From: Paludibacteraceae bacterium
Lineage (GTDB): Bacteria; Bacteroidota; Bacteroidia; Bacteroidales; Paludibacteraceae
NCBI GenBank assembly: GCA_017450435.1
Contig: JAFSTO010000066.1
Span: forward strand, 1 to 43,681
Length of the DNA: 43,681 nucleotides
Reading direction: 5' to 3'
Part shown: positions 10,445 through 43,681 of the stretch, piece by piece
Position numbering within the stretch: position 1 is the first letter of the stretch
Layout: every line of letters starts with the position of its first letter
The notes under the pieces: generated by a model
Told to the model about the DNA's origin: nothing
Database searches by the model: none
Seen by the model: the letters and a program-made list of their open reading frames with translations, nothing else
Made by a program: the position numbers and the translations under genes

Positions 10445-10474
10445 GTTAAAATCTAAAAAGTTAAAATCTAAAAA
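10445..10474. repeat. 15-bp direct repeat, two exact copies
   Basis: GTTAAAATCTAAAAA occurs twice back to back in the greA 5' leader. Confidence 0.9.
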
Positions 10475-10557
10475 CAACGAGAAACTGTCGCAGCCTCTCG
10501 TTGGTCAAAATTACAAAACCTGAAAATTTATGTATGAAAAAAAGATATTTTCGACTA

Positions 10558-10589
10558 CAAAGGTACTGCTTTTTTTTAATATAAGCAAG
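10558..10589 (-). promoter_or_regulatory. Predicted Bacteroidetes promoter for greA operon
   Basis: On the minus strand CTTG, a 20-bp spacer and TACCTTTG match the -33/-7 form TTTG-N19-20-TAnnTTTG with one mismatch in the -33 box. The spacer contains an 8-nt T run (plus strand). A second -7-like TAATTTTG on the minus strand lies at 10506-10513, nearer to the gene, with a poorer -33 box. Confidence 0.6.
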
Positions 10590-10645
10590 GAAAATATGTT
10601 TTTTTTGAATATTTGTTGCATAATTATGCTATTTTTTGTGTGCCG

Positions 10646-10677
10646 TTTTTCGAGAATGGCTTTTTTTCGTAATTTTG
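10646..10677 (+). promoter_or_regulatory. Predicted promoter for miaB
   Basis: TTTT, 20 bp and TAATTTTG lie 46 bp before the miaB start. The -7 box is perfect and the -33 box has three of four bases. The spacer includes a T7 run. Confidence 0.5.
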
Positions 10678-25210: not shown

Positions 25211-28200
25211 ATGAAAAAGCATCTGTTACTTTCACTCGCTTTCGTTCTCTCAACCATCATATCGCTGGCTGCCCCGTCGTCGTTGCCGGATAATATACCT
25301 TCGACAGGGCGTGACTTTTGGCTTACGTTTATGCACAACAATGATGTTGACAACAACTACCTGAAGTTGCGTATATATGCAGTGGCGCAGTCTGCAACGA
25401 ATGTGACTATTACCAAGGCCAATGGAACGGTGCTGACTTCCGGTGCTGTAGCAGCAGGTTCGGTGTTCAGTTATACTATACCTGACGCTGAACGTAGCAA
25501 TGTATATATGACGTCATCCGGTCGGATAGAAGCAAAAGGTTTGCATGTTACATCGGATGCTTCGGATATTGCTTTGTATGTTGCCAATAATTTTGACAAC
25601 GGTTCGAAACTTTCCTTCGATGCTACACCGGTCATTGCCACTTCTGCGTTAGGTAAGGAATATGTTGTTCAGACCTATTACGCGGATAAGACAGCAGAGG
25701 AAATGGTGATTGTAGGTACGGAAGATGGAACTAACGTGACTATTGTGCTTGGACACGAGGCAATAAATGATTTGGGAGCCAACTTTTCTGCCGGTCAAAC
25801 GATAAGCATTTCTCTCAATGCCGGTCAGGCATACCAGTTGAAAGGTAATGTTGATGGTTTGGGCTTGTCATATTTGTCAGGTACAACTGTTCTTTCAACC
25901 AAGCCTGTAGCGGTATTCAATGGAGGTATCAACACAACTGTTACATACGATGATGGTGCTGACGGTGATCATATAGTTGAGCAGTCTATTCCTATATCTG
26001 CATGGGGTAAGCGGTTTATCGTCTCTCCGATGCATGGTTTCCCGAGCGGAGCCAATGTGTCCTCATCAGAGCCGACTCAGTTTTCTGTTACTGCCATCTA
26101 TGATGGTACGGAGGTTAAAGTTAATGGTGTTACGCTATGTACGCTCAATCGTGGCGAGACCAATTATGAGTTTAACGGCTATGGCATAACCGTTAATTAT
26201 AACGAAGCTCCGAAATTCATTGAGACAAGCATGCCGGTTATTTGCTACGGCTATACAACCAATGGTACGAGTAATAAAATCAAGGTGGGTATTCTTAACC
26301 GCAACGTTGGTGAGCCGTCTATGGTGCTGATTCCTGATAAGCGCCAGGGTGTGCAAACATCACTATTTACAACCTATAATGATGGTTTCTCAGGTGATGG
26401 TATTGCACATTACGCAAACATCCTTGTGCCCGATACTGCTGTATCGGCAATGAAGTTAAACGGCACGGACATCAGTTCTTCTTTTACAGCTTTGTCTAAC
26501 CATTTCTCAAACGAGTCAGGCAGTTGGAACTGGATGTATGCCCGTGTGGCTCTTTCTAACGGTTTCAATGTCGTGAGCAACTCGAAGGGAACTTTCCTTG
26601 CTTATGCCTATGGTGTTCAGGTGGGTTCTGCACGTGGTTACGCTATGGCGACCAACTTCAACCTTGCGCCGGCAGCACCGGAGGTGTTTATCGGCGGGGA
26701 GAGAATGAACCACAACGATGTGATAGACTTCTGTAACCGCCACCCGGGCATGAGTTTCTCTGCCAATGTGGATTATGTGCACGACTCTATCCGTTGGGAC
26801 TACGGTGACGGCAACACAAGTTCAAGTATCAACAGTAACCATATCTACAATATTCTTGTCAACGGACAGTCGCAGACCAATATCGTTAAGTTCTTTGTGT
26901 TCCGTCATGACCCTTTGTCCGGCGACAAGCACACTGACACCGTCAAGGTAACGCTTAATGTTCACCCCACATACTACGACACTTTGGAAGTTGACTTGTG
27001 CGGGTCGGAGGAGAGTTACCACTGGACGCAGTCGTCGGAGAACTTCAATAACGAGGGTATTCACAAGGTGTTCCTTGCCGGCAACGATGCTTTGGGCGTT
27101 AGCGCTACGGGACACGAGTATCACTTCGATGCTAATACGGAGACGGAGTACTTCGACTCTATCGTCTATCGCACCAGCACATGGGACTGCGACTCTATCT
27201 TCTTCCTTCGCCTACGTGTACACAAGAGCTATGATGTGGTGGAGTCGGCTACATCTCTCACCGTTTGTCAGAACGAGCCGTTTGAGTGGACCAACCACCC
27301 GCTGAACGACCCTCTTAACCACAAGGTTTATCGCATACTCGGCAGTGACAAGGTCAAGCTGACCGGCATGACTGCTTACCCGACAGCCGAACCTGCCACC
27401 TATACGTTGCTCGACTCGATGACGACTGCCCGCGGTTGCGACTCTGTCATCACACGCCAGTGGATTGTCTATCCTGAGTACAGTATGCCCACCGTGAACG
27501 ACGAGGTATGTCAGAACGAGCCATACGTATGGAAAGACGGTAGCGACGGCTTGGTACACAAGCTGTACAGAGTAACGGCACCAAGCGGATATATAACCAC
27601 CATTCCGACCGATGTGGTGACAACGCTCACTATCATCGACTCGATGAAGACCATCAATTCGGGCTGCGACTCTATTGAGACCCTTGTGCTCGTTATCCAC
27701 CCTGAGTTTAACAGTGTAGTAGAGCCGGGGGATGCCTTCGAGGTTTGTCAGAACGAGCCGTTTGCCGCATGGCCCGGTCACCCGCTGAGCGGCAAGGTGT
27801 ATATGAACGACGTTCGCGTCACCACCACTTTCTCCACCGCCACAGCCGGCACGTTCACCTTGACGGACTCGCTCACTACCATTCACGGCTGCGACTCTGT
27901 AGTGACACGCCAGTTGATTATTCACCCTGAGTTTAACGCTGTTGTTGAGAACGCCACACCTCTTGAGACCTGCCAGAACGAGTCGTTCACATGGTCCGGT
28001 CACCCGCTGAGCGGCAAGGTTTATATGAACGGCGTTCGCGTCAGCGGCGCAATATCCACCGCCACAGCCGGCACGTTCACTTTGATGGATTCGCTCACCA
28101 CCGTTCACGGTTGCGACTCCGTTGTGACACGCACACTTATCATTCATCCTGTCTATGCTTTTGACGAGTCGTATCAGCTATGCGCTAACGACCTGCCTTA

Positions 28201-31200
28201 CATATGGCACGGCAAGTCGCTAATGGCGTCAGGCAACTATACCAATGATAATGAAGACCAGACGACAATATATGGCTGCGACTCTATTTATACGCTTCAC
28301 CTGACCGTCTATCCCAAACCGACGATAAATATTGTTTCTCCGGCAGTATCGATGTGTCAGGGTACTGCATTCTTAGACCCGTACGCTATTCATTTCACTT
28401 CAAGCAACACAACAATCGTTCGCGGCTATGTATGGAATAGTGCTAATGTGGTGGTACATTCCGGGTCGATAATTGCTTCTCCTACAGCTTTTTCAAACGC
28501 TTTTTTCAGTTTTGCATCCTCCATGGCTTTTCTGCCTGCCGGCAACTACAGAATACGCCTTGTGGCATATAACGAAGAGTACGGGCACTCCTGTCCGAGC
28601 GACACTGCGTCCGTAGGGTTTGTTATCCATCCTAAGTTCTACAATTTGGAGAAAGACACCATCTGCGATACAGCCGAACCAATCAGTTGGCACGGCAAGA
28701 CGCTCAATTTCCGTCCGGTAGTGGAGCCTCTCGGATATGATACTGTCTATTACGACAGTCTGACCAGCGTGCAGGGTTGCGACTCTGTGTACGAACTGCG
28801 CGTGCGTGTGGAGCGCTCGGCGCCGTTGGTTACCACTGCCACTATATGTTACGGCGAGTCGTATGACTGGGTCATCACTCATCCTTGTACGGGAGCCGAC
28901 TACAAACTGATGAAGAACCTCACCAGCTCGTGTGAGATTTACGATACTATCCGTTGTCCGGGTGCTGCCTGCAATAAGGTGTTCAAGCTTGAGCTGACCG
29001 TTCGCTCCAAGCAGGCAGCCGTTGTAGATGCTCCGCGTCGTATATGCAAGGGTGAGACGTTCACATGGCGCGGCTTGGACATCAGCGCTCCCGGCGTATA
29101 TGAGACATTGGACAATACCGACCTTGACGCCAACGGCTGTGCACGCACACACCGCATCACCGTTACGCAGTTAGAGCCGCAGGTCCGTGAGACGGCTGCA
29201 ACGATTTGCTACGGCGAGCCATATACCTTCGGCTCACATACCTACGCGCATCTTGACGCCGGTCTGCATATTCTTCGTGATACCATCGCCTCTAAGGTAG
29301 GCGGTTGCGACTCTGTTTATGTAGTGCTGCGTCTTACCGTAGGTCAGCAATACCTTGTTGAGGAGAGTCACACGGCATGCGACGCTTACCAATGGCGCGG
29401 CAAGACACTCACCGTATCGGGCGACTACGCCGACACCTTAGCGTCGGTTAACGGCTGCGACTCTGTGTATCTGCTCCACCTTACGGTGAATAAGTCCTAT
29501 TCGTTCAGCGAGACGTACGCAGTGGCTCTGCAGGAGATGCCGTTCACCGTTCATGAGTTCACCTACGACTACTCGTCGGCGGGCACCTACAACGACACTC
29601 GCGCCTACCAGACAGTAGCCGGTTGCGACTCGCTCTACCACATCACGCTCAACGTGTATGACGCTCCTGTTATTCTGAAGCGTGACACCACTCTGCGCAC
29701 TATCTGCAAGGGCGGCACATGCTCTTGGCGCGGCGGCACTTACACGGAGCCGGGCGACTATAGCGTGGCTGACGCCGACTCGGTACACCTGCTTAGACTG
29801 ACCGTGAACGACACCTACCGCGACACCTTATATATACACACGTGCGCGACGGGGTATTATTTTGATGGTGCCAACCGCACCGTCAGCGGCACCTATGTAT
29901 ATAACGGCACCGGTGTTCACGGTTGCGACTCCGTCGTTGTGCTCAAGCTGACGGTTGCCGCTCCGTCGCCTGTGACCAACATCAATGCCACGGCATGCCG
30001 CGGCGACCTCTTCGCATGGGGTGGGGAAGCCTTTGTTGCTACAACCAACCGCACGCTGCGCGACACGCTGCTTAATGTGGCGGGCTGCGACTCGGTGGTA
30101 GTGCTCACGCTGACGGTAAACAACTACGCTGTAGGCACAACCGACAATGTCTCGATATGCGACGGCGACTCCTATCTCTGGCCGTCCAACGGCAAGACAT
30201 ACTCTGCGCCCGGTACGTATCTTGACACTGTGGCGGGAGGCGGCTCATGCGGAACGGTCAACACGCTGAACCTCAACGTCAACCCGTCGTATCACTTCTT
30301 CGACGACGTGGAGCTGCGTCAGGAGGTGCTGCCATACACTTGGCGCGGACACACCTTCCATTTCGAAAGCGTTTATGACTATGATATAACCGACGACTAC
30401 ACCACTATTCACGGCTGCGACTCCGTCTATCATCTGCACCTGCATATAGTGCCAGAACCGCCGGAGGAGAACGACTTTGTGTATCGTGATACAACGGCTG
30501 TAGATGCTTGTATGACTTACAATTGGCACGGACACACCTATACAGAGGACGGACTCTATTCCGACACAGTGTGGAAAGCCGGACGATATGACACCGTTCA
30601 TTTCATCAACCTGACTATCCACCCCGTATATGAGTTTGTAGAGGATGATATCATCTCCTGTGACAACGAGATAATCACGTGGCACTGCACTAACTACAAT
30701 CCTGCGTCAGGCTACTATGCCGTTACCACAACCGAGACCTCGGTTCACGGTTGCGACTCGGTGTTCCATGCTAATTTCCGGGTATATAAGACCTTCCGTG
30801 ATACGACAAGTGCAACCATGTGTCAGTATGACGTGTTCACATGGCGCGGCATGACGTTGTCGCCCGCTGCCGGAACATACCTCTACTCCGACACACTTGC
30901 GTCGCTCGTTTCGGGCTGCGACAGCATATATTTCCTGAGCCTCACCGTCACCCCGCGCACCTTGTCTGACACTACCGAATATACGATGTGTAACCTTGCT
31001 TCGTATGACTGGCAAGGCTATCATATCGCCAACAAGGAAGCCGGCGACTACGAGTATTACAAGTATTACACTCCTGACGGCGAGTGTGAGACGTTCCACT
31101 ACCTGCTGCTTCACGTGTATGACGTAGTGCCTGACACCACTCATGCCTCGGTATGCTATGGTGAGTCATACGACTGGTGGGTTGACAGCGACGGTAACGG

Positions 31201-34200
31201 CTCGCTTGACCGCCATGTGCAGAACGGCATCTACGTGCCGGGCTACCAGTATGACACAGTGCCTGACGGCGCCTGCAACAAGGTGTTTGTGCTTGACCTC
31301 AGCGTCATGCCGGCTCCTGATGTCAAGCCGCAGGATGAGGGAGTGATGTGTCCGGGCGGCAACTACCTCTGGCGCGGACATACCTACACGGCTGCAGGGG
31401 TTTATGGCGACACCGTACGCTCGCTTGTGACGGGTTGTGACTCGCTTATCTTCAGTCTTAACCTCACTGAGCAGAAAGCTACCGTCTATCAAGAGACCGT
31501 GCACCGCTGCTATGGCGAGACTTACACATGGCCGCTTAACGGCACCACCTACACCGCTTCGGCAAGCGACATGTTCGTCGTTCCGTCGCTCGTGACGGGT
31601 TGCGACTCTATCGTATATAACCTCTCGCTTCTGATCGACGCTGCTCCGTTGGCAGGTGAAGAGAGTGTTGTCCTCTGTGCCGACTCTTACACGTGGCACG
31701 GCAGTGTGCTGACCGCATCGGGCGACTATGTGGAGACGCTCACTTCGTCGCTCGGATGCGACTCAACAGCCACCTTGCACCTCACTCTCTCGCACGACGA
31801 GACGTTCTATGAGACGGTGGCTATACTTGACACGCAACTGCCTTACACTTGGCACGAAGATACCTACACCGGCGGCGGCACTTATACACAGCACCACCAG
31901 AACATCTTTGGTTGCGACTCTGACTATGTGCTTACGCTTATTGTCAGCCCTAAACCTATGAGGACGGAGAACAAGACGATATGCGAGGGCGAGACATACT
32001 CGTGGCGAGGCAACACCTACACGGCAGAGAACTCGTATCACGTGGAGACGGCCGACTCGATACATATCCTCAACCTTAAGGTGGGTAAACACTATAATTT
32101 TGCAGAGGAGAAACACATCTGCTCAAGCGACCTGCCTTACTCATGGCAGGGTCAGTCGCTTGCATCGGCAGGCACACACACTGCGCCTTACACTACATAC
32201 TGCGGTTGCGACTCTGTATATACGCTCACCCTGTATGTGGCACCGGTTGCCGCCACTGCGGCAGAGATGACGCTCTGCGAGGGCGAGGTCTTCAACTGGG
32301 GTCCGTACTTCGAGAAGCCGGCAGCCGGCACCTACAGCCGCACGGCTACGTTCCCGTCGCTCGTATCAGGCTGCGACTCAACAGTCAACCTGACGCTGCA
32401 TGTGGTAGGTCCTACTACGGTCAATGCGTTAGAGACACAGAATGTTTGTAAGTCGGAACTGCCTTACTCTTGGCGCGGACACACCTACAGTGCAGCCGGA
32501 CTGTACGGCGACACTGTTCCGTCGCTTGTAACAGGCTGCGACTCTGTTCTCTCTTCGCTGCACCTGATTGTGAACGAAGGCTTCTATGAGTACAACGACG
32601 TTGAGATAAACGAGGACGCCGTGCCTTATTACTGGAACGGACACAACATGCTGGTATCGGAAGAAGGTTCGTATTTCGACACTTACGCTGATATGAATGG
32701 TTGTGACTCGGTATATGAGCTTCACCTGCACCTCAACTTCTATAAGCGCGACACCACATGGGCTGACGGCACTCACGGCTCGTCAGAGGCTTGCGACAGC
32801 TACTCATGGCGCGGACGCACCTTCACCGCCTCCGGCATCTATACCGACACGGTGAAGAGCGCCAACCCTGTGGAGATATACTACCTCTCGCTCGTCGTTA
32901 ACGAGAGCGTCTATGCTGCGGCAGAGACGGTGGAGACATGCGGTTCGGAGTATATGTGGCACGGCATCAACCGTCCTTCTTCAGGCACCTACACTTACAC
33001 CGCCTCAGGCGTGGCGGCTAACGGCTGCGACTCGGTTTATACCCTGCACCTCACGCTTTATCCTGAGTACAACATTGCGGAGCCGGCAATCACCATCTGC
33101 GACAACGAGTATGTGCATTGGCACGACACGTTGCTGCATACCGCCGGCACCTACACACGCCGCTACACCTCCGTTCGCGGCTGCGACTCGCTGCGCACGG
33201 TGACGGTTAACGTCAACCCGACATACGGCTTTGTTGAGAAAGACACTATCTGCGAGGGCGAGAGCCTCACGTGGCATGGTCTGACACTCGCTAATATTGC
33301 TCCGAGCAACACGCCTTACACGTATTATGACACTCATACTTCAGCGTCGGGCTGCGACTCGGTATATGAATTGCAACTGCTTGTGCGTGCTCCGCGCGTC
33401 TTCCATGACACGGTGTATGCATCGGCATGCGAGGGCTCGGTGTATGGCTGGGAAGGCAATAACGGTGTGTTCGTGATGAACGTGCACGTCACGGAGTCAA
33501 TGACTCACGAGCGTCAGTTCGGCGACCTGTATTGCGTTGACTCGACCTACACTCTTATTATGACGATGCTGCCTGTGATGCGCGACACGGTGGAGGCTGC
33601 TATATGCGGCGACGACACCTACTCGTGGGCGGGCAAGTTCCTCTCTGGCGGAGGCACGTATTACGACACGCTGACCGCTGTCAACGGTTGTGACTCGGTA
33701 CGAGTGCTTATACTGCATGCCGACCCTGCACCCGAAGACCGACATGTGGACTACACAGGCTGCCCGGGTACGGAGTTTAACTACAACGTCATTGCAGGCC
33801 ATCCGTTCGTATATACAACACCGGGTGTTTACCATGACACGGTTCGCTCTATTCACGGCTGCGACTCTATTTGGCTGACGGTGAACTTCGAATACTCTGC
33901 CATCACCACCCATGTCCTTGACGAGTTTGTGAGAGAGTCAGACCTGCCGTATTACGTTGGTGTAGAGTCGTTCTCTGCGCCTAATACCTATAACTTCACA
34001 GTGCCTAACTTCCAAGGTTGCGCTGAGCCTTATACGCTTAGTCTGCACGTTCTTGCCGACAGGTACGACACGCTGCGCGTTCATGTCTGCGCAGGCGAGG
34101 GCAAGGTGGTTGACTTCTACGGCACCGACAGCCTTGTCTATCCGACGCCGGCAGGTGTGATGCTGCAGGATACGCTGATTACTGCCGACCCGATGGCGTA

Positions 34201-37200
34201 TGACACTGTCCGCCACTTGGTAGTGATGGCAGAGAACGTATCGTTCTCGGGCGACACCACCATCTACGCCCTCGTTGGTTCGCCTGCGTACCTCTGGCCC
34301 GGACACACGCTGACCAAGGTGGGCGAGACAACGCCCGTACCGGCGGCGCTGACCACCGTGGCAGGACTGACCGACTATTACCACCGCATCAATTGCGACT
34401 CGATATACTACCTGCACTTCAATGTGATTGACACTCCGTCGCACGTGGATGTTGACACTGTCTGTCCGTCGGCTCTGCCGTATGAGTGGGTAGGTCACGC
34501 CGGCAAGTCAGTGCCGGCCGGTTCGGCTGAAGACACGGAGCATATCCTCTCGGATATCACTACCGTATCGTTCGGCACGCCGGAGGTGTTCGACAGTTAC
34601 GACACGTTGTACCTGTACGTTAAGCCGACCTACAGCATAACGTTGCCTGACACTGTCGTTCTGCAGAACGAGCCGCTTCTGTTCTGCGGCACACCTGTAT
34701 CCACCTCTGAGCCGCGCACGGAGTTGCTCACCCGCACACTCACTTCGTCCATCGGTTGCGACTCGGTGGTATCACGTAACCTCAAGGTGGTTAAGTACGT
34801 ACCTACAACGGCTGTCGTTTGCGACGGCGATGACTATACATGGCTCACCTACAGCTACGACCACTCGGTTGACACCACTGTTATCTTCCCTGTAGGGTCG
34901 CCTGTGTTGAGCGTGCTCACCGACTCTGTCTGTCGTCTGCAACTGACGGTGGAGACGCCTGACGTTAAACCGGTCTTCAACGGCAACTGCAACAAAAACG
35001 CGCTGCCTTATGTATGGCGCGGACACAACTACACCGAGTCGGGCATCTATCGTGACACGGTGCTGTCAGCCAACGGCTGTGCCGCCGAGGTCTATACGCT
35101 TGACCTCGTGGTAGGTCCGTTAGTGGAGACCAAAGACACTATATGCGACGGCGAGACGATGATGTGGGGCGGAGTAAGCGTCACCGCACCAAGCAGCAAC
35201 AACGACTTCGTGCGCAACGACACCACCTTCCGCCTGAACCTGTATGCCGCTCCGCACTACTCGTTCACGCTGGATACGACCATCTATATAGGCGCGGGCA
35301 GACCGGCAGTCTTCAACTGGCTCAACGAGAACGGCGCAACCATACGCTCTATCCCGACGGCAGACGCTACTAACGACAAGTTCTTCGGAAAAGTGGACAG
35401 CATCTACGAGACCAAGCAGTTTGGCTGCGACTCTGTCTATCACCTCACCCTGCGCATCTATGGCGACACTACTATCACGGAGAAGGACACTATCTGTGCC
35501 GACCAAGTGCTGTCGTGGCACTGCAAGACCTTCGATGGTGCTGACAAGGCGGGACAGAACTTTGTTCTGTACGACTCGCTCACCACGTGGTATGGCGCAG
35601 ACTCTGTGCACGTGCTCAACCTGCATGTGGGCGACTCGTGTATGCCTAAGCCGGCTATGCCGTTAGATACAGTGATATGCTATGGGCAGACGTTCGACTG
35701 GGTGGTCAACGGCAACCTCGTTTCTACGTACAACATCTCAGCAGTGGATGTGTTTGTTGACGACTCTGTTTACACGCTCAACCTCACCGTCAACGGCGAC
35801 TATAGCGAGATTATTGACGCGCCTGACACCATCGTCTATGGCGAGACCTTCACTTGGCACGGCGACGACTATGCCGGCTTGGCTGAGGGCGACCACCTCC
35901 TGCAGAAAGAGTTCACCACCTATCGTGGCGGTTGCGACTCAATATATAAGATTAACCTCTATGTCAAGCCGCTCAATGTGGAGTATGTTGACTCTGTTGC
36001 TTACGATACTATCTGCGCCGGCGATTACTACGACTGGTACATTAGCGGCGAGATGGTGCAGCCGGACGGCTACCACGTTAGCACCACGAGCACGCTCTTC
36101 ACACAGAAGACCGTGAACAACGTTCCTCCTGTGGCTGACACCGTCTATCGCTACACGATGCACCTGACGGTGCGCGATGTAGAGCTGCGCAACGAGTATC
36201 AGCAGATACCTTGCGGCGGTTCATACGTATGGGCAGGACACTATGGCGATATTCTGCTTTCGTCAGACACCGTCATCTCCGACACCGTTCGTTATACCGT
36301 GGGCATGGCGTGCGACTCTGTCATCTACCGCCTCACGCTGAGCATGCTGCCGCCGGCTACATTCAGCACTATCGACACTGTTTTCTGTCAAAACGACAAG
36401 CCGGTGATGTGGGGCTCTGAGGTTATTCCTGTTAACAACTTGGGCACGTTCAGCGCAACGCTCAGAACGACCAACCACCTCATGGGCGACTCAATCATCA
36501 CACTCAACTACACCGTTGTGCCGGCTGCATCGTTCGACTCCGTGCATGTCATCTCACCGCTTGACGGCAATGTATATACATGGAACGAACACACTTATCA
36601 CGCCAATATGGACACCACGTTCCGCTTCAACAGCGAGTCGGCTGCGGGCTGCGACTCCGTGGCAACACTGCGCGTGATGACCGGTCTGTTGGCACACGAC
36701 ACGGCGTACGCCGCCGTCTGCCCGACAGAGACGACCTACCACTGGACGAGAGGCACGCTTGACACTACTTTCGTCGATGTGGAGACCGGCCTGTACTACG
36801 GCATCAAGCCTACCTTCACTCCGGGCTTCGACTCCGTCATCGTTCTCTCGCTCACCAAGCTGCAGACCGACACTCTGCATCTGTTCGACACTACCTGCTA
36901 CGACCCGCTTGTCGATGTCAAGCCGGCTGATACGCTCTACTTGCCGTTCGCTGCTTATGCGTGCGACTCCGTGGTGAAAGTCACTCACCATCACGTCATC
37001 ACTCAGCTCCATGAGAACGTGGTTGACACCGTTATACAAGGGTCGAACTTCATCTGGGGCTCGGTGGCTATCACCGGCATCCAGCCGCAGAACGTAGGTG
37101 CAGGCAATCCTGACTACGTGTTCACCAACGAGCCGTTTACCAGCGTCTTCGGCTGCGACTCGACAGTGACGATGTGGCTGTATGTGGCACCTAAGTACGA

Positions 37201-40087
37201 GTTCTTCGACACGGTGCGTATCTGCCTTGGCGACTCATACACTTGGACGCTCACAGGCCAGACCTTCACGCCGGAGATAGCAGGGTATAAGACCTACAAA
37301 CGCGTTTATAAGTCGGAGGTTTACGGCAACGACTCGATTTATAACCTCACTCTGTTTGCAGAGGAGAAGTACTCAAATATCCGGACTGTCGCTATCGATG
37401 CCGACTCTGTATTGCAGTGGCGCGGCCGCTCGCTTGACACCACCGGCTACTACTACGACTCGCTCACCTCTGTGTCGGGTTGTGACTCTGTTTATGGTCT
37501 GCACCTCTATGTCGGCCGTATCGCTCACGACACCGTTCGTGCCACTATATGCGACGGCGACATCTTCAGCTGGACCATTGAGCCGGGTGTAACACAGCAG
37601 GAGACCACTGCAGGCTTCCACTACTACTCGTGGCATCAGGCAGGTCCTCCGGCTTACGACTCTATCCTCGTGCTCGACCTCACCGTCAATCCGTCATACG
37701 ACTACACTGCCGAGCTGCACGTGCCGCAAGACAGCACCTTCGTCTGGGAGGAGGACGGGCAGACCTACGACACGCACAACGCGGGTATGCAGTTGCTCAC
37801 CAACGCGCTTAACACCACGCTCGGCTGCGACTCAGTGCTGAACCTCAACCTCTATGTTGAGCCTACCTACTTCATTCAGCAGTACGACACCGTGTGTGAG
37901 ATAGAGGGCATGTCGCTCCTCGCCTTCGACTCGGTGCGCACCGAGTATGGCGTTACAACCTATGGCTTCGACTCGATAGTGCAGTATAACCTCTTCGTAC
38001 ACGGCACGCCTGTTGTGTATGAGTACGACTCGCTCTGCCATTCGGGCGACGATGTGGTGATGTGGCACGGCATGAACATAGCGGCGCTCAACCCGATAGG
38101 CGGCGATACCGTCGTGTATGCCACCGAGCAGTTCCGGCCGGGTGTGTATGACTGCGACACGCTCTACACGCTGTACCTGCACATCTATCCTGACTATCTG
38201 TTCACCTTCCGTGACACTATACCCGATAGCGAGGTTTATGGCACGCGCTGGAGAGACACGCTCGGAGTACCGGAACTCGACTCTATTCCGCAACTCGACC
38301 CGCAGCAGACACCGCAAGTGTTCTATTTCTACGACACCTTGCAGACTGTTCACGGTTGCGACTCTGTTTATGCTCTGGAGCTGCTTGTCGGACCTACCTT
38401 TAAGTTCGAGGAGACGCTCAACACTTGCGACAACGACTCCGTCTGCTGGCACGACTCGATATGGTACGTCATGCTGCCGGAGGGCACCTATTATGACACG
38501 CTCGTCTATAAGACCACGCTCGGATACGACTCGGTATATACCCTCACGCTGACCGTCAACCCGATGCGCACCTACGAGTGGTCAGACACTATCTGCCCGA
38601 CCGACCAAGCGTTGTGCGGCAGCAAGTGGATAACCTATCACGACTCGCTCGGAACAGACTATGAGAACATCGTTATTGAGGCATGGGATACTATTCAGAC
38701 CTACCTCGGTTGCGACTCTGTCTGCCACTTGTCGCTGCATTTCTACATGCAGTATGACAGCGTCACCGTTGACTCCGTCTGCTACGACACGCCTTTCTAC
38801 TGGGCGGCAAAGGACACCACCTATCTCTTCCACGACCACGGCGTCTATACCGACAGCGTCATGCTGCAGACCATACACGGCTGCGACTCTATACTCCGCT
38901 TAGAGCTGTATGTGGAGAACCTGTGGAAGCCTGACACTACCTTCAGTATCTGTATAGGCGACACTTTGCACTGGCTACACCGCGACACGCTGGATTTGTT
39001 TATCACTTCGGGCGACTCGCTGACATGGAATACTTATCCTGCCGACTCTGTCGGGAACTTCCTCTTCGTGGATACCGTCTATTCGGCGCTCGGCTGCGTC
39101 TATTATGACACGCTGCACCTGATGGTGGTTGAGCCTGTGGTGGTACTCAGTGCTCAGGTTGACGACCCGTACTGTGCCGACAACAACGAGATGACTATCA
39201 TCTACACTATCGACACTGTAGGCGGTGAGCCGCAGCAGTATTACCTCTACTTCTCTGATGCAGCCCGCGAACAAGGGTTCTTCGATATAGAGGGTGAGAC
39301 GATGGCACACACCGGAACGATAGTCGTGCAGTTGCCGCAGTTTGGCAAGGACAAGTTCCCGCGTCCGGACACATATGAGGCAACACTCTACCTGAACAAC
39401 GGCTCGTGCCGCGATACGGCTACCATGTCGTCCGTCACATTCACCTTCGACATCCTCTATCCGTCGTGGTTCGCCGAGCAGCACTGGAACGATTATCTTG
39501 CAGTGCTCTCGCCGGAGGGCAACAAGACGGAGGATAACCCTGCCGGCTATACCTTCACCGCCTACCAATGGTATATCAACGGCGAGCCTATTGACGGCGC
39601 AACCGACCCGATGCTGTATTACCTGCACGGTATTCCTACAGCCGACATGCCGCACAGCGATGGTGATACGACCTATGCCGCCGGCTCATACTATCAGGTG
39701 ATGCTCACGCGCGAGGACGACGGCAAGGCTATACTGACCTGTCCGCTCATTCCGCAGGAGATACCTGACAAGGACGTGCACAACGACTGGTACTTCACCG
39801 TGGACCATACGTTCATCGACCACAACAACCCGAACCTGAATATCCTCACCAACACCACCGGTTCGTACCACCTCTATGATGCTGCCGGCAAGCTACTCGC
39901 AACGGGTGAGGTGGCTAAGGATGACTCGGGATACACGCTCATAGAGGAGCACCACGCTTATCGTATAGAGGCAATCAACGAGGTGCTTTATGTGCCGGGT
40001 ACATACCTGCTCTGGATGGTGTCTGACGAACCGTCGCCCTACACTGGCAGACGTGTAAGACGCGCCGTGAAACTGCTGGTATATTAA
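25211..40087 (+). CDS. Giant repetitive surface protein, 4958 residues (IgGFc-binding-type N-terminus, paired-Cys repeats, T9SS-like C-terminus)
   Basis: The frame is intact for 14.9 kb. A signal peptide (MKKHLLLSLAFVLSTIISLAA) precedes an IgGFc-binding-like N-terminal domain (about 30-490; GKEYVVQTYY, then SIPISAWGKRFIVSPMHGF). A PKD-like module lies at about 505-590 (DYVHDSIRWDYGDGNTSS). About 68 degenerate repeats of about 60 residues fill roughly 600-4630. Each has the form C-x2-E-x-Y-x-W-x-G, then a loop, then GCDSVYxLxLxV; I count about 37 exact GCDS. An Ig-like stretch follows (TAYQWYINGEPIDGATDPM), then a C-terminal sorting-domain-like tail (YHLYDAAGKLLATGEV and VPGTYLLW, ending in basic residues and KLLVY) of T9SS type A character. 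Two cysteines per repeat suggest disulfides; adhesin is an inferred role. Size should be confirmed with long reads. Confidence 0.82.
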   Translation: MKKHLLLSLAFVLSTIISLAAPSSLPDNIPSTGRDFWLTFMHNNDVDNNYLKLRIYAVAQSATNVTITKANGTVLTSGAVAAGSVFSYTIPDAERSNVYMTSSGRIEAKGLHVTSDASDIALYVANNFDNGSKLSFDATPVIATSALGKEYVVQTYYADKTAEEMVIVGTEDGTNVTIVLGHEAINDLGANFSAGQTISISLNAGQAYQLKGNVDGLGLSYLSGTTVLSTKPVAVFNGGINTTVTYDDGADGDHIVEQSIPISAWGKRFIVSPMHGFPSGANVSSSEPTQFSVTAIYDGTEVKVNGVTLCTLNRGETNYEFNGYGITVNYNEAPKFIETSMPVICYGYTTNGTSNKIKVGILNRNVGEPSMVLIPDKRQGVQTSLFTTYNDGFSGDGIAHYANILVPDTAVSAMKLNGTDISSSFTALSNHFSNESGSWNWMYARVALSNGFNVVSNSKGTFLAYAYGVQVGSARGYAMATNFNLAPAAPEVFIGGERMNHNDVIDFCNRHPGMSFSANVDYVHDSIRWDYGDGNTSSSINSNHIYNILVNGQSQTNIVKFFVFRHDPLSGDKHTDTVKVTLNVHPTYYDTLEVDLCGSEESYHWTQSSENFNNEGIHKVFLAGNDALGVSATGHEYHFDANTETEYFDSIVYRTSTWDCDSIFFLRLRVHKSYDVVESATSLTVCQNEPFEWTNHPLNDPLNHKVYRILGSDKVKLTGMTAYPTAEPATYTLLDSMTTARGCDSVITRQWIVYPEYSMPTVNDEVCQNEPYVWKDGSDGLVHKLYRVTAPSGYITTIPTDVVTTLTIIDSMKTINSGCDSIETLVLVIHPEFNSVVEPGDAFEVCQNEPFAAWPGHPLSGKVYMNDVRVTTTFSTATAGTFTLTDSLTTIHGCDSVVTRQLIIHPEFNAVVENATPLETCQNESFTWSGHPLSGKVYMNGVRVSGAISTATAGTFTLMDSLTTVHGCDSVVTRTLIIHPVYAFDESYQLCANDLPYIWHGKSLMASGNYTNDNEDQTTIYGCDSIYTLHLTVYPKPTINIVSPAVSMCQGTAFLDPYAIHFTSSNTTIVRGYVWNSANVVVHSGSIIASPTAFSNAFFSFASSMAFLPAGNYRIRLVAYNEEYGHSCPSDTASVGFVIHPKFYNLEKDTICDTAEPISWHGKTLNFRPVVEPLGYDTVYYDSLTSVQGCDSVYELRVRVERSAPLVTTATICYGESYDWVITHPCTGADYKLMKNLTSSCEIYDTIRCPGAACNKVFKLELTVRSKQAAVVDAPRRICKGETFTWRGLDISAPGVYETLDNTDLDANGCARTHRITVTQLEPQVRETAATICYGEPYTFGSHTYAHLDAGLHILRDTIASKVGGCDSVYVVLRLTVGQQYLVEESHTACDAYQWRGKTLTVSGDYADTLASVNGCDSVYLLHLTVNKSYSFSETYAVALQEMPFTVHEFTYDYSSAGTYNDTRAYQTVAGCDSLYHITLNVYDAPVILKRDTTLRTICKGGTCSWRGGTYTEPGDYSVADADSVHLLRLTVNDTYRDTLYIHTCATGYYFDGANRTVSGTYVYNGTGVHGCDSVVVLKLTVAAPSPVTNINATACRGDLFAWGGEAFVATTNRTLRDTLLNVAGCDSVVVLTLTVNNYAVGTTDNVSICDGDSYLWPSNGKTYSAPGTYLDTVAGGGSCGTVNTLNLNVNPSYHFFDDVELRQEVLPYTWRGHTFHFESVYDYDITDDYTTIHGCDSVYHLHLHIVPEPPEENDFVYRDTTAVDACMTYNWHGHTYTEDGLYSDTVWKAGRYDTVHFINLTIHPVYEFVEDDIISCDNEIITWHCTNYNPASGYYAVTTTETSVHGCDSVFHANFRVYKTFRDTTSATMCQYDVFTWRGMTLSPAAGTYLYSDTLASLVSGCDSIYFLSLTVTPRTLSDTTEYTMCNLASYDWQGYHIANKEAGDYEYYKYYTPDGECETFHYLLLHVYDVVPDTTHASVCYGESYDWWVDSDGNGSLDRHVQNGIYVPGYQYDTVPDGACNKVFVLDLSVMPAPDVKPQDEGVMCPGGNYLWRGHTYTAAGVYGDTVRSLVTGCDSLIFSLNLTEQKATVYQETVHRCYGETYTWPLNGTTYTASASDMFVVPSLVTGCDSIVYNLSLLIDAAPLAGEESVVLCADSYTWHGSVLTASGDYVETLTSSLGCDSTATLHLTLSHDETFYETVAILDTQLPYTWHEDTYTGGGTYTQHHQNIFGCDSDYVLTLIVSPKPMRTENKTICEGETYSWRGNTYTAENSYHVETADSIHILNLKVGKHYNFAEEKHICSSDLPYSWQGQSLASAGTHTAPYTTYCGCDSVYTLTLYVAPVAATAAEMTLCEGEVFNWGPYFEKPAAGTYSRTATFPSLVSGCDSTVNLTLHVVGPTTVNALETQNVCKSELPYSWRGHTYSAAGLYGDTVPSLVTGCDSVLSSLHLIVNEGFYEYNDVEINEDAVPYYWNGHNMLVSEEGSYFDTYADMNGCDSVYELHLHLNFYKRDTTWADGTHGSSEACDSYSWRGRTFTASGIYTDTVKSANPVEIYYLSLVVNESVYAAAETVETCGSEYMWHGINRPSSGTYTYTASGVAANGCDSVYTLHLTLYPEYNIAEPAITICDNEYVHWHDTLLHTAGTYTRRYTSVRGCDSLRTVTVNVNPTYGFVEKDTICEGESLTWHGLTLANIAPSNTPYTYYDTHTSASGCDSVYELQLLVRAPRVFHDTVYASACEGSVYGWEGNNGVFVMNVHVTESMTHERQFGDLYCVDSTYTLIMTMLPVMRDTVEAAICGDDTYSWAGKFLSGGGTYYDTLTAVNGCDSVRVLILHADPAPEDRHVDYTGCPGTEFNYNVIAGHPFVYTTPGVYHDTVRSIHGCDSIWLTVNFEYSAITTHVLDEFVRESDLPYYVGVESFSAPNTYNFTVPNFQGCAEPYTLSLHVLADRYDTLRVHVCAGEGKVVDFYGTDSLVYPTPAGVMLQDTLITADPMAYDTVRHLVVMAENVSFSGDTTIYALVGSPAYLWPGHTLTKVGETTPVPAALTTVAGLTDYYHRINCDSIYYLHFNVIDTPSHVDVDTVCPSALPYEWVGHAGKSVPAGSAEDTEHILSDITTVSFGTPEVFDSYDTLYLYVKPTYSITLPDTVVLQNEPLLFCGTPVSTSEPRTELLTRTLTSSIGCDSVVSRNLKVVKYVPTTAVVCDGDDYTWLTYSYDHSVDTTVIFPVGSPVLSVLTDSVCRLQLTVETPDVKPVFNGNCNKNALPYVWRGHNYTESGIYRDTVLSANGCAAEVYTLDLVVGPLVETKDTICDGETMMWGGVSVTAPSSNNDFVRNDTTFRLNLYAAPHYSFTLDTTIYIGAGRPAVFNWLNENGATIRSIPTADATNDKFFGKVDSIYETKQFGCDSVYHLTLRIYGDTTITEKDTICADQVLSWHCKTFDGADKAGQNFVLYDSLTTWYGADSVHVLNLHVGDSCMPKPAMPLDTVICYGQTFDWVVNGNLVSTYNISAVDVFVDDSVYTLNLTVNGDYSEIIDAPDTIVYGETFTWHGDDYAGLAEGDHLLQKEFTTYRGGCDSIYKINLYVKPLNVEYVDSVAYDTICAGDYYDWYISGEMVQPDGYHVSTTSTLFTQKTVNNVPPVADTVYRYTMHLTVRDVELRNEYQQIPCGGSYVWAGHYGDILLSSDTVISDTVRYTVGMACDSVIYRLTLSMLPPATFSTIDTVFCQNDKPVMWGSEVIPVNNLGTFSATLRTTNHLMGDSIITLNYTVVPAASFDSVHVISPLDGNVYTWNEHTYHANMDTTFRFNSESAAGCDSVATLRVMTGLLAHDTAYAAVCPTETTYHWTRGTLDTTFVDVETGLYYGIKPTFTPGFDSVIVLSLTKLQTDTLHLFDTTCYDPLVDVKPADTLYLPFAAYACDSVVKVTHHHVITQLHENVVDTVIQGSNFIWGSVAITGIQPQNVGAGNPDYVFTNEPFTSVFGCDSTVTMWLYVAPKYEFFDTVRICLGDSYTWTLTGQTFTPEIAGYKTYKRVYKSEVYGNDSIYNLTLFAEEKYSNIRTVAIDADSVLQWRGRSLDTTGYYYDSLTSVSGCDSVYGLHLYVGRIAHDTVRATICDGDIFSWTIEPGVTQQETTAGFHYYSWHQAGPPAYDSILVLDLTVNPSYDYTAELHVPQDSTFVWEEDGQTYDTHNAGMQLLTNALNTTLGCDSVLNLNLYVEPTYFIQQYDTVCEIEGMSLLAFDSVRTEYGVTTYGFDSIVQYNLFVHGTPVVYEYDSLCHSGDDVVMWHGMNIAALNPIGGDTVVYATEQFRPGVYDCDTLYTLYLHIYPDYLFTFRDTIPDSEVYGTRWRDTLGVPELDSIPQLDPQQTPQVFYFYDTLQTVHGCDSVYALELLVGPTFKFEETLNTCDNDSVCWHDSIWYVMLPEGTYYDTLVYKTTLGYDSVYTLTLTVNPMRTYEWSDTICPTDQALCGSKWITYHDSLGTDYENIVIEAWDTIQTYLGCDSVCHLSLHFYMQYDSVTVDSVCYDTPFYWAAKDTTYLFHDHGVYTDSVMLQTIHGCDSILRLELYVENLWKPDTTFSICIGDTLHWLHRDTLDLFITSGDSLTWNTYPADSVGNFLFVDTVYSALGCVYYDTLHLMVVEPVVVLSAQVDDPYCADNNEMTIIYTIDTVGGEPQQYYLYFSDAAREQGFFDIEGETMAHTGTIVVQLPQFGKDKFPRPDTYEATLYLNNGSCRDTATMSSVTFTFDILYPSWFAEQHWNDYLAVLSPEGNKTEDNPAGYTFTAYQWYINGEPIDGATDPMLYYLHGIPTADMPHSDGDTTYAAGSYYQVMLTREDDGKAILTCPLIPQEIPDKDVHNDWYFTVDHTFIDHNNPNLNILTNTTGSYHLYDAAGKLLATGEVAKDDSGYTLIEEHHAYRIEAINEVLYVPGTYLLWMVSDEPSPYTGRRVRRAVKLLVY
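27776..28140 (+). repeat. Recent internal duplication in the giant gene (222-bp period)
   Basis: Bases from 27776 and from 27998 both begin GGTCACCCGCTGAGCGGCAA and continue nearly identically, including ATGAACG-CGTTCGCGTCA and the CACAGCCGGCACGTTCAC stretch. The period is 222 bp (74 codons, in frame). Other repeats are much more diverged, so this pair is young. Confidence 0.85.
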
Positions 40088-40097
40088 GACGTGCCGT

Positions 40098-40136
40098 TGT
40101 CAGGGAGAGACCGGATGCCTGTCAGGGAGAGACCGG
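40098..40136. repeat. 17-bp direct repeat, 22-bp period, with degenerate palindrome
   Basis: TGTCAGGGAGAGACCGG occurs at 40098-40114 and 40120-40136. The second copy runs into GTAAAAAATACCATCTGA, a degenerate copy of the AGAGACGGTA palindrome in opposite orientation. The gap 40088-40265 shows no clear promoter, so the next gene may be read through from the giant gene. Confidence 0.8.
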
Positions 40137-40265
40137 TAAAAAATACCATCTGACACCCCACTTCACGATGTTCGCGGGGGCCCCGTTGTCTCTACACGCG
40201 GGCGGAACAAGGTTGGAATGTACTATTTATTATCGGAAATATACAACAATCAAAGAAAAGATCAT

Positions 40266-41360
40266 ATGAAGGAAAATGATATTTTGTTCTCACGTGGTAG
40301 TTTTGTGACTTTTAGAGACGGAAAAAAATTCCGTCTCTACCGGCGTGGGTTACTCTTTGTACTTGGTCTCTTGGTATTTGGTCTCTTGCCCGTTCGTGCT
40401 CAGCTGTATCATCAGTTGGGTGCGTCGGCCTACGGCGGCTATTCGTCGATGGTGTCGTCTGCCGACATGGTCAGTCCCGGAAGAGGGTTTCATACCACGG
40501 CGGGTTTCGCCTACGAGCTGCAGTACGGGCACCTGCTCTTTCAGACGGGCGTCTCTTTCCAGTGGCGCTCGGCAGGAATGAACGTGGCTGACTCCGCTTT
40601 CTATGCCAACAACGGAGAGCTCTTCAACGGGCTGGGTGATATGCCGGGAACAGAGCCGACACAGTTCCGACTGCAGATACGGACGACAGAACGTACCGAC
40701 TATGAGAGGGTGGGAGAGATGCAGATACCGATGCTCGTGGGAGGTATATACGGTCACTTCTATTTCCTCGGCGGTTTCAAGCTCGATTTCCCTCTGTTCG
40801 GTGTGACCCGTACTCACGCTCATTTCACTACCGAAGGTCATGTGCCTACACTCGTCAAGCCGGTTACCTCGATGGCTTTTCACGGTTTTGTGAACGACTA
40901 CCCCGCCTCTATCCGCGGTCCGCGGCTGAACACCCTGCCGGTGGACCTCTTGGCGTCGTTTGAGATAGGATATAACTTCTCCCGCACCGACGATATGGTA
41001 CGCGAAGGCGAACGCACCGTCAGAGAGATGCGTATGCGTATAGCAGCATACGCCGACTATAGCATTATTCCGCAGCACCAAAACACCTCGTTAGAGGCTA
41101 TACATATACCGGCGGGCTTCCTCTACGATGTGGAGCGTTACGAGCCGGCACACGTGCTCGCTACCGATGCGGCAGTCAACACCTATCTTGCTAACTTCAA
41201 TGTGGGAGTGAAGTTCACCATCCTCTTCGGCAACAAACAACGCTTCAAGTGCCACAACTGCGACGCCGGTGTAGATGCCAACCCCTATTCGGGCATACGC
41301 CGACCGGACAACAAACAGACCAACACCTCGCACCCCACATCCACGCCTGCAAGCGAATGA
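40266..41360 (+). CDS. Outer-membrane beta-barrel protein
   Basis: The frame opens at 40218, but the ATG at 40266 (MKENDILFSRGSF) is chosen as the start; this gives 364 residues. Residues about 26-43 are a signal peptide core (RRGLLFVLGLLVFGLLPVRAQ) preceded by an unusually long N-region. The rest alternates amphipathic strands with turns, as in Bacteroidetes porin-like barrels (HLLFQTGVSFQWRS, MQIPMLVGGIYGHFYFLGGF, LLASFEIGYNFS), ending with VGVKFTILFG and a hydrophilic tail holding CHNC. No start codon of good quality lies downstream of the palindrome at 40313-40339, so that repeat is inside the coding sequence. It follows the giant gene by 178 bp and may be functionally linked to it (inference). 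Confidence 0.75.
   Translation: MKENDILFSRGSFVTFRDGKKFRLYRRGLLFVLGLLVFGLLPVRAQLYHQLGASAYGGYSSMVSSADMVSPGRGFHTTAGFAYELQYGHLLFQTGVSFQWRSAGMNVADSAFYANNGELFNGLGDMPGTEPTQFRLQIRTTERTDYERVGEMQIPMLVGGIYGHFYFLGGFKLDFPLFGVTRTHAHFTTEGHVPTLVKPVTSMAFHGFVNDYPASIRGPRLNTLPVDLLASFEIGYNFSRTDDMVREGERTVREMRMRIAAYADYSIIPQHQNTSLEAIHIPAGFLYDVERYEPAHVLATDAAVNTYLANFNVGVKFTILFGNKQRFKCHNCDAGVDANPYSGIRRPDNKQTNTSHPTSTPASE
40313..40339. repeat. Palindromic interspersed element, copy E (inside the barrel gene)
   Basis: TAGAGACGGAA and TTCCGTCTCTA form an 11-bp stem with a 5-nt A loop. The element continues CCGGCG, and GTCTCTACCGGCG (40333-40345) recurs exactly at 41472-41484. In frame it encodes FRDGKKFRLYRR. Confidence 0.82.
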
Positions 41361-41368
41361 TAATGGCG

Positions 41369-41433
41369 AAGTGACAAAGTACCAGGTACGATGCGCTGCC
41401 AACGTGTAGAGACGGTATTTTTTTACCGTCTCT
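41369..41433. repeat. Heptamer-related fragment plus palindromic element, copy B
   Basis: AAGTGACAAAGTACCA and GGTAC (41369-41389) nearly repeats bases 3123-3143. Then AGAGACGGTA (41408-41417), a T6 loop and TACCGTCTCT (41424-41433) form a perfect palindrome, followed by CAAAAAAGG, as in copy A. Confidence 0.85.
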
Positions 41434-41568
41434 CAAAAAAGGATGAAGGACGAACGACGGATATACGATGCGTCTCTACCGGCGAAGCAACAAGGTCGGA
41501 TTGTGTGAGGGGAGGTATGGAAGATATTTACCTGTTTTTTGCAATATGTCGTTTTTTTACGATTTTTC

Positions 41569-41599
41569 TTTGTTGTTTAAGATTTTTATTGTAACTTTG
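41569..41599 (+). promoter_or_regulatory. Predicted promoter for the retroelement leader
   Basis: TTTG-N19-TAACTTTG is an exact match. The reverse transcriptase start is about 400 nt downstream, leaving room for a non-coding leader or template RNA. Confidence 0.7.
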
Positions 41600-41760
41600 C
41601 ACACTCAAACTGCGTTGTTATAGAAATGATTATATCATCTATGCACGTTTGAACTGCGCTGTTATAGAAATATTTATTGCAACTTTGCGGGTTTATATTA
41701 GCAGCATTATTTGAGATTTTTATTGTGACTTTTGCAAACAGAAATTGTGCTATAAACACT
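41581..41760. repeat. Degenerate direct repeats upstream of the reverse transcriptase
   Basis: AACTGCGTTGTTATAGAAAT at 41608 and AACTGCGCTGTTATAGAAAT at 41652 differ by one base. A wider unit starting GATTTTTATTGT(A/G)ACTTT is seen at 41581 and 41714. An ATTGCAACTTTGC stretch at 41677 is a further variant. The rest of 41361-42008 includes a C8 run (41808-41815) and no convincing gene. Confidence 0.7.
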
Positions 41761-41899
41761 ATTTGTATCCGATGGTACTTCTGTATATAAATAATAATCA
41801 ACGAATTCCCCCCCCACCGTGCGAATGGGCGGAGCGGTTGTAGTATAAGTGCTGTTCGTGCTGCCGGAGCGGCAGTAAGTATTTTTGACATGTAGATTT

Positions 41900-41940
41900 A
41901 TCTCCCGCTGTCTGACCAATCAGGTCAGGCAGCGGGAGAT
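41900..41940 (+). ncRNA. Strong hairpin in the retroelement leader
   Basis: ATCTCCCGCTGTCTGACC (41900-41917) pairs with 41923-41940 over 18 bp with one G-U wobble and a 5-nt loop. It is not followed by a T run, so a terminator is unlikely. A 6-bp hairpin (CTGCCG-GAG-CGGCAG) lies just upstream at 41861-41875. A role in the leader or template RNA is inferred only. Confidence 0.5.
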
Positions 41941-42008
41941 GTTGTTATATATACGTAGCAACAGATAACATAATCGGCAAACAACCGGACAGTGACAGAT
42001 AGAGGACG

Positions 42009-43109
42009 ATGAATGACACTTATGCTCTCTTCCACACTTTGCTTTACAAAGCGTATCTTGACGCGCGACGGAAGAAAAGAATGACACAGTCGCAACTTAG
42101 GTTTGAGATAGATGCGGAGAGACGGTTGGAAAAACTATATAACGAGCTGATATTGCATAAATGGAAACCTTCTCCATGCATACGTTTTGTGGTCAAGTAC
42201 CCCGTCAAGCGCGAGGTTTTTGCGAGTGAGTTTGCCGACCGCGTGGTGCACCATTTGTATTTCAACGCCGTGGCACCATTGGCGGAAAAAGTGCTGATAG
42301 CCGACTCTTACTCGTGTCGCAAGGGGAAAGGTACGTTATACGGAGTGAGCAGACTGGAACACCATGTGCGCTCCTGCTCGCTTAACTACACTGCTGACTG
42401 CTGGGTGCTGAAACTTGATATACAAGGATATTTTATGTCTATTCCCCGTGAGCGTTTGCGTCTGTTGGTTCACAGGTTGCTTGGGAAAGCAGAGGACAAG
42501 GAGCTGCTTCTTGACAGAGATATGTTGTTATGGCTGACCGACGTGATTACTCTTCACGACCCGATGGAGGGTTGCAAGCGTATAGGAGATGAGCATGAGT
42601 GGGATGATGTGCCGCCAAGCAAGTGTCTGAGCCACTCGCCGAAAGGGGTGGGGCTGCCGATTGGAGACCTGACCTCGCAACTGTTCAGCAATATCTATCT
42701 CAATGAGTTGGACCAATATGTGAAACGTGAGTTGAAGGTGAAGCACTACGGCAGGTATGTTGACGACTTTTTCCTCGTCGGTCGTGACAAGGCTTTTCTC
42801 TGCTCTTGTGTGGAAAAGATACGGGTGTTTCTCTCGGAACAGTTAGGCTTGATGCTTCATCCGAAAAAGATTCTCTGTTACCACGCCTACTGCCCGAAGA
42901 CAAGAACAGGCGAACCGATACCGTTTCTCGGTGCAGAGGTCAGACCGTTTTATCGGCAATTGTCGCGGCGAACAACGCGCAAGGTTCAGCAGTTGGCGCG
43001 ACGTATTGAGAAAGAGGGAATAGCAGAGTGTTGGCAAACTGCAAACAGTTATTTAGGGCAGATGAAGCACTATAAGGCGGCAAAACTAAGCAGGATGATG
43101 AAAACATAA
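42009..43109 (+). CDS. Reverse transcriptase of diversity-generating-retroelement type
   Basis: This 366-residue RT carries the DGR-like signature set: DSYSCRKGKGTLYG (99-112), LKLDIQGYFMSI with the first catalytic Asp137, GLPIGDLTSQLFSNIYLNEL (215-234, the IGxxxSQ motif of DGR RTs), YVDDF (250-254, catalytic YVDD), LMLHPKKI (281-288), PFLGAEVRP (305-313) and a C-terminal SYLGQMKHYKAAKL. No maturase, HNH or retron msr/msd elements are visible. DGR RTs copy a template RNA with adenine mutagenesis and direct it into a variable gene. The gene is preceded by a long structured leader and followed 31 bp later by a target-like gene. No Avd-like accessory gene is in the window. Confidence 0.85.
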   Translation: MNDTYALFHTLLYKAYLDARRKKRMTQSQLRFEIDAERRLEKLYNELILHKWKPSPCIRFVVKYPVKREVFASEFADRVVHHLYFNAVAPLAEKVLIADSYSCRKGKGTLYGVSRLEHHVRSCSLNYTADCWVLKLDIQGYFMSIPRERLRLLVHRLLGKAEDKELLLDRDMLLWLTDVITLHDPMEGCKRIGDEHEWDDVPPSKCLSHSPKGVGLPIGDLTSQLFSNIYLNELDQYVKRELKVKHYGRYVDDFFLVGRDKAFLCSCVEKIRVFLSEQLGLMLHPKKILCYHAYCPKTRTGEPIPFLGAEVRPFYRQLSRRTTRKVQQLARRIEKEGIAECWQTANSYLGQMKHYKAAKLSRMMKT

Positions 43110-43140
43110 TACATTATACATAAATAAAATATCATAATTA

Positions 43141-43681
43141 TGAAAAAACATTTGTTTCTTTTATTATCGTTTTTATTTACGGCAACGGCAACTGTAGTAG
43201 CCGATCCGCCTGAGGAGTGTGAAGACCTTGGAACGGTTCAGGGCAAGGCGACCGTTACTTTTAAGCGTTATGCCGTGAAGTACCTGCCGGGTAGGTTTAC
43301 CGTTTCCACAGGTCAGGAGGGCAGCGGTAACAAGGTGCGTTTTTCTCAGGGAAACCTGCAGTACCGCGCGGAGAGCGGTGTGTGGCGTTTTGCTGAGAAC
43401 CAGTGGGACTATATCGGCAACGCCGAGGGTAATATCACCGAGTCGAGTCGTCGTGCCGGTCAGACCGCTTTTATCGACCTCTTCGGCTGGGGCACCTCCG
43501 GAGCAACGGCTTCTGATTTCCCGACGTCCGCTACCGCCACTGCGTATCAGCCTTGGGCTACGTCAACCAGCAACGCCGATTATTGCCCGGGTGGTAGCAA
43601 CGCGGTGAACATAGCCCAAGGTTCGGGTTATGAGGAAGCAGACTGGGCTTGGCATAACAAGATTCAGAACGGCGGCAATGC
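43141..43681 (+). CDS. Secreted DGR target-like protein (C-type-lectin/FISUMP-like), cut by window edge
   Basis: 180 codons are visible before the window ends; the frame is open. A signal peptide (MKKHLFLLLSFLFTATATVVA) is followed by KVRFSQGNLQYRAESGVWRF, AENQWDYIGNAEGNITES and FIDLFGWGTSG. This N-terminal pattern belongs to Bacteroidetes surface proteins whose C-terminal part is a formylglycine-generating-enzyme/C-type-lectin-like fold, commonly ending in SVRLV. I know that pattern from memory. The variable region would be at the C-terminus, beyond the window. The start ATG 43141 lies in a poly-A leader 31 bp after the RT stop, so it is probably cotranscribed. Confidence 0.75.

Follow-up and report, generated by a model that had tools for sequence, protein, structure and literature searches.

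A reverse transcriptase of the diversity-generating retroelement kind with a probable target gene behind it at the end of a Paludibacteraceae contig

The right end of a 43,681-base contig from a Paludibacteraceae bacterium carries an intact reverse transcriptase (RT) of the diversity-generating retroelement (DGR) kind, followed on the same strand, after a spacer of 30 nt, by a gene from the family that the closest DGRs diversify. The stretch analyzed (the window) spans contig C51 of genome G000 from end to end, in a 2.65-Mb assembly of 76 contigs that is 96% complete; the contig stops inside this second gene, the candidate target. On balance, the locus is probably the left part of a DGR, seen in part and ordered RT and then target, the gene running on into a variable repeat (VR) with the template repeat (TR) beyond it. 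Most likely it is an ordinary DGR apart from the RT-first order, which is unusual among DGRs. The features of the locus are as follows.

41553-41732, plus strand: AT-rich segment holding imperfect repeats of families D1 and D3
41740-42008, plus strand: leader of the RT gene, the usual template site in relatives; template search empty
41899-41941, plus strand: hairpin of 19 pairs within the leader, resembling a terminator or attenuator
42009-43109, plus strand: DGR-type RT, 366 aa, intact open reading frame (ORF)
42660-42680, plus strand: IGDLTSQ motif of the RT
42756-42770, plus strand: YVDDF motif of the RT
43047-43070, plus strand: SYLGQMKH box of the RT
43140-43681, plus strand: probable target gene for a secreted GNLQY/LFGWGTSG protein, first 180 codons, open at the contig end
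43350-43364, plus strand: GNLQY block of the candidate target
43479-43502, plus strand: LFGWGTSG block of the candidate target

The reverse transcriptase and its surroundings

An earlier, sequence-only reading of this DNA had called the enzyme a DGR-type RT from its IGxxxSQ and YVDDF motifs and its C-terminal SYLGQMKH box; all three are present, and the call is borne out by family, structure, and tree. The RT matched Pfam RVT_1 (E = 2.5e-14) and the phage protein family phrog_1423 (E = 1.1e-89), and it keeps 42 of 43 conserved columns, with one departure (columns shared by at least 95% of the other rows; 34 rows kept after six RTs shorter than 330 aa were dropped). These three results together indicate that the RT is not a chance call, and the conserved columns show that it has no visible decay. 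Its top PDB matches were 8ub7 and eight further entries (328 aa, E = 2e-31), whereas retron-type and group II chains scored 9.2e-08 or weaker. From its length, 8ub7 is probably the enzyme of Bordetella phage BPP-1. The BPP-1 DGR (brt, TR, avd, mtd) thus has the RT family in common with the window, since Brt also matches phrog_1423 (E = 1.9e-125), and the length of Brt is that of the best PDB match (328 aa). Unlike the window, BPP-1 has the order target, avd, TR, RT, encodes Avd, and diversifies a phage tail protein. In the window, the search for an Avd-like accessory gene covered plus-strand ORFs longer than 76 aa between 41361 and 43681, where the RT and the candidate target are the only two.

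In a 66-row tree of RTs, the DGR group was split from the others at a branch with support of 100/98, and the window RT fell inside it, not among the group II or retron RTs, a placement that the sequence-only reading had named as one that would speak against a DGR. The DGR label in this tree was assigned by us and takes in two loci, L115 and L158, in which no template was found; five RTs shorter than 330 aa were left out, and the RT of L031 was retained though short. The six group II RTs formed a clade of their own, as did the six retron-like RTs, one of which scored above the retron family's own cut-off. In a search of 178 genus and 358 family genomes, the closest RTs found are 53 to 56% identical to the window RT. 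Its sister is the RT of locus L070 (support, 99/99), and the two belong to a clade of seven (98/95) together with the RTs of L056, L114, L071, L072, and L076; each of the six other members has a scored TR/VR pair.

Other identities for the enzyme were rejected. As a group II RT or maturase, it reached 84.3 bits against a cut-off of 300 for TIGR04416, and all six group II reference RTs read QGxxxSP where the window RT has IGDLTSQ, with the clades separate. As a retron RT, it reached 38.2 bits against a cut-off of 235 for NF038233, and the retron-like RTs lie in a separate clade. C-terminal truncation was ruled out because the sister RT of L070 is equally short (362 aa).

For the 380-aa gene upstream of the RT, the homologs within the genus are all distant, with identities of no more than 37%, so no empty site can be defined for the locus. 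Two further elements of the window were recorded. Positions 25211 to 40087 form one ORF of 4,958 aa, which opens with a signal-like segment and consists of many GCDSV-type repeats. Positions 41361 to 41462 hold a dispersed element with a core of ~40 nt and an inverted GACGGTA/TACCGTC motif; it covers 44 of the 46 G000 matches listed (40 of 126 candidates scored).

The neighboring gene and its family

The gene behind the RT had been described as a secreted protein with GNLQY and LFGWGTSG blocks. Both blocks are present, and its N terminus is signal-like as judged by eye. It has homologs (E = 1.6e-26 to 1.2e-07) in the DGR targets of six related loci, L056, L077, L070, L071, L074, and L072, at all of which a template/variable pair was scored, and the target of the L114 DGR is homologous as well. 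The DGR target of highest identity is that of L056, from the goat-rumen Bacteroidales genome RGIG3729, with 55% identity over the overlap (53% over 113 columns in another alignment). That locus thus shares with the window both the seven-member RT clade and a target of the GNLQY family; unlike the window, it has its TR upstream of the RT, and 24 of 52 adenines and no other base are changed in its pair. In the same genus, L070 (G057:C23) shares the sister RT, of similar length, and a GNLQY-family target. It differs from the window in having the order target, TR, RT, with the TR 216 nt and the VR 1,506 nt before the RT; in this pair, 16 of 50 adenines and no other base are changed.

Seven target-family matches were found in G000, the window gene counted, and we estimate the chance that a random downstream neighbor would belong to the family at ~0.3% (7 in ~2,300 genes). 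Across the genus, 15 of 178 genomes, G000 included, carry a target-family match at an E value of 1e-20; among the other 14, an RT match at the same threshold occurs in G057 alone, on a different contig. In that genome, the TRs of L070 and L077 match their own VRs only and not the target homolog on C27. In a tree from which duplicate rows had been removed, members with and without a DGR were intermixed and the position of the window member had no resolution. The neighbor is therefore no proven target by adjacency alone, since the family has many members away from any DGR found, but it is a probable one, as its relatives by sequence include the targets diversified by the closest DGRs.

The C-terminal lectin fold that the sequence-only reading had suggested for this class of protein is a candidate feature only. 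No Pfam model matched the part of the target that lies in the window, and a profile of the family matched no PDB chain up to an E value of 1. The FISUMP model was weakly matched by 6 of 12 family members (best E = 1.8e-05). Elsewhere in G000, at locus L033 (G000:C41:252000-264000, positions 3628 to 6714), three GNLQY-family genes stand in tandem, with divergent and partly cysteine-rich C termini; no RT was found there, nor any scored repeat pair within the first 9 kb.

Template position in related loci and the search for a template

We compared 56 related RT loci (batches of 28, 9, and 18, plus L032; L031 and BPP-1 not counted), which include near-duplicates such as L060/L061, L066/L067, and L057/L059 and five loci with less than 1 kb of DNA behind the RT (L058, L065, L066, L148, and L157). 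A TR/VR pair was scored at 39 of the 56, with the TR 116 to 653 nt upstream of the RT on the same strand, and a further 14 showed only a TR-like peptide, at most 700 nt upstream. By our own tally, then, a TR or TR-like peptide precedes the RT by no more than 700 nt at 53 of 56 loci, although some of the 14 could be VRs. The three others are L115, with a TR/VR-like peptide at -1,072 nt and no pair; L158, with neither peptide nor pair in the 742 nt covered upstream of its RT; and L159, the only one of the 56 with a TR/VR-like peptide behind the RT. Run on BPP-1, the pair finder recovered its repeats, which are 134 nt long and show changes at 18 of 25 adenines and at 4 other bases; it returned no pair from 60 control loci (first 9 kb of each). 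Target homologs near RTs (24 loci, plus-strand ORFs) were upstream of the RT in six cases out of six, and the order RT and then GNLQY target was not found among the related loci examined.

Two loci in this material carry cassette arrays. At L160 (G706:C35:8500-18500, reversed), nine tandem cassettes of ~280 nt, plus one more unit adjoining the RT, make up an array upstream of it at about -3270 to -286 nt. Some are asparagine rich and template-like, others are diversified and variable-like, and they do not lie within one long ORF. The units at -286 and -1593 differ at 16 adenines and at no other base in the core, and older-looking pairs are -1035/-2713 (20 adenines, 12 others) and -1315/-3271 (19 and 22). 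The array looks like a set of multiple templates and variable repeats or a cassette archive. The second array, at L117 (G294:C7:39000-52000, positions 8581 to 10661), lies upstream of a DGR-type RT, has a period of 435 nt, 4.8 copies, and an 86% match, and is VR/TR-like, with several cassettes in one open frame of 582 codons.

In the window, the place that a template usually takes is filled by an AT-rich leader with a strong hairpin. A profile of TR-like peptides found nothing in the window (best E = 2.8); the same profile detects the templates of L070 and L032, which had been excluded from its construction, at E values of 3.5e-30 and 5e-09. An adenine-tolerant scan with positions 37001 to 43681 as the template against the whole window gave no pair, a result of little weight with the expected VR past the contig end, and the peptide profile is the more telling test. 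A decayed template hidden in the leader was rejected after a blastn comparison with 12 relatives (best E = 0.33). The sequence-only reading had held that the lack of a TR/VR pair with adenine-biased differences within ~5 kb would count against a DGR. Upstream, the searches indeed show no pair, while the downstream part of that range is beyond reach, the assembled DNA stopping within the target gene before the expected VR.

This empty site is what would be seen with an orphan RT, one that lost its template and target upstream in a rearrangement and is now idle or kept for another use, its neighbor being a frozen ordinary member of the family. L158, with no TR-like peptide or pair in the DNA covered, and L115, with a distant peptide and no pair, speak for it, as does the distribution across the 14 other genomes with a target homolog. 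Against it, the RT has kept its conserved columns, and a family member directly behind the RT is unlikely to be there by chance. We regard an orphan RT as unlikely, if far from negligible.

The leader (41740-42008) folds better than all of 200 shuffled sequences (z = -4.6), a strength that is probably owed largely to the hairpin at 41899-41941. A hairpin scan returned two terminator-like sites, which is not above shuffles (mean, 1.2; standard deviation, 1.0), and Rfam gave no credible match. No sigma-70 site was found by a scan of 41553-41732, where the AT-rich repeats are presumably promoters of the Bacteroidetes type, as judged by eye. It is conceivable, though we think it improbable, that this DGR-clade enzyme no longer has a template repeat of its own and uses a different RNA instead, such as the structured leader or a shared template elsewhere, while it stays coupled to the surface gene of a putative lectin family behind it.

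A join of unrelated DNA before the RT during assembly, hiding a true upstream TR, would also produce an empty site. The assembly is fragmented, and the G+C content falls to 0.345 at 41400-41799, but an AT-rich leader with a hairpin would suit a natural RT leader, and the search of G000 turned up no unattached TR that would match. We hold such an error to be very improbable.

A profile of the target C terminus had eight matches in the 2.65-Mb assembly, six of which extend other family genes; one is the template of the DGR on C41, and one is weak (C41:72893-73111). The assembly thus yielded no continuation of the window target and no template for it at this profile's sensitivity, which gave the C41 template 20 bits only, so that a divergent template could escape. 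The weak match (E = 0.147) lies in an open frame of 399 aa, and a repeat-pair scan of the locus that holds it, L125, found no pair. Viral contigs had no match to exact patterns of 25 and 26 bases and no relative of the target protein, and phages had no match to the DNA of 41361-43681.

The RT might instead serve in trans a template and one or more targets in a part of the genome absent from this assembly, which is 96% complete and in 76 contigs. DGRs with remote targets are known, as a large metagenome survey states where it deals with them (PMC8144416). No such template is present in the assembly within reach of the C-terminus profile, and among the relatives a TR or TR-like peptide stands just upstream of the RT in 53 of 56, so that we give action in trans little credence.

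Gene order and the proposed retroelement

A template behind the RT has parallels. In the DGR on C48 of the same genome (L031), an FGE-like target and an accessory-like ORF precede the RT, and the template, whose first bases overlap the 3' end of the RT gene, lies behind it (16 of 35 adenines and 1 other base changed). At L159 (G683:C55), whose RT falls in the same broad clade, the site directly upstream of the RT likewise lacks a TR; two accessory-like ORFs stand between the RT and a probable TR, which lies ~2.2 kb after the start of the RT match and 1.1 kb after the end of that match. Unlike the window, L159 has its VR ~0.3 kb upstream of the RT, and its pair, in which 85 nt of alignment show changes at 9 of 21 adenines and at 5 other bases, falls under the pair criterion used. 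The other DGR of G000, on C41 (L032, positions 4816 to 7189; ~142.8 to 145.2 kb), has a VR, a TR, and an RT, with 26 of 55 adenines and 2 other bases changed. In its account of gene order, DiGReF gives VR-TR-RT for 56.6% of DGRs, describes one group whose templates lie downstream of the RT, and finds no strict order (PMC3521204). The large metagenome survey notes that remote targets escape its detection, and it omits some RTs and targets near a contig edge (PMC8144416).

Given the arrangement at C48, and probably at L159, a template may lie past the point where the contig stops, and these two loci together with the downstream-template group of DiGReF make RT, target, template the simplest reading of the window. 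Under it, the contig end would cut inside the target, and the VR, placed by comparison with L056, would start about 270 to 300 nt past base 43681. The RT would reverse-transcribe the RNA of the template repeat, making errors at adenines, and the resulting cDNA would take the place of the VR close to the 3' end of the gene behind the RT and so alter the binding face of the secreted protein.

Several results weigh against this reading. Upstream TRs or TR-like peptides are the rule among the relatives (53 of 56), target homologs lie upstream of the RT wherever they were seen (6 of 6), and neither a template nor a continuation was found in the assembly. Family members also occur with no DGR nearby, the target tree lacks resolution, and the L159 pair is below the criterion.

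The sequence-only reading had proposed an active targeted-mutagenesis cassette with a surface target. What it observed is confirmed, and its interpretation as a DGR is partly supported: the RT belongs to the DGR clade and its neighbor to a family of DGR targets, but no template/variable pair is visible, and targeted-mutagenesis activity is a prediction.

If complete, the locus would be a third targeted-mutagenesis cassette in G000, beside two that have RT, template, and variable repeat, and it would show an order, RT and then GNLQY target, unseen in the related loci examined. Among the relatives, the template keeps closely to the region upstream of the RT, so exceptions of this kind stand out.
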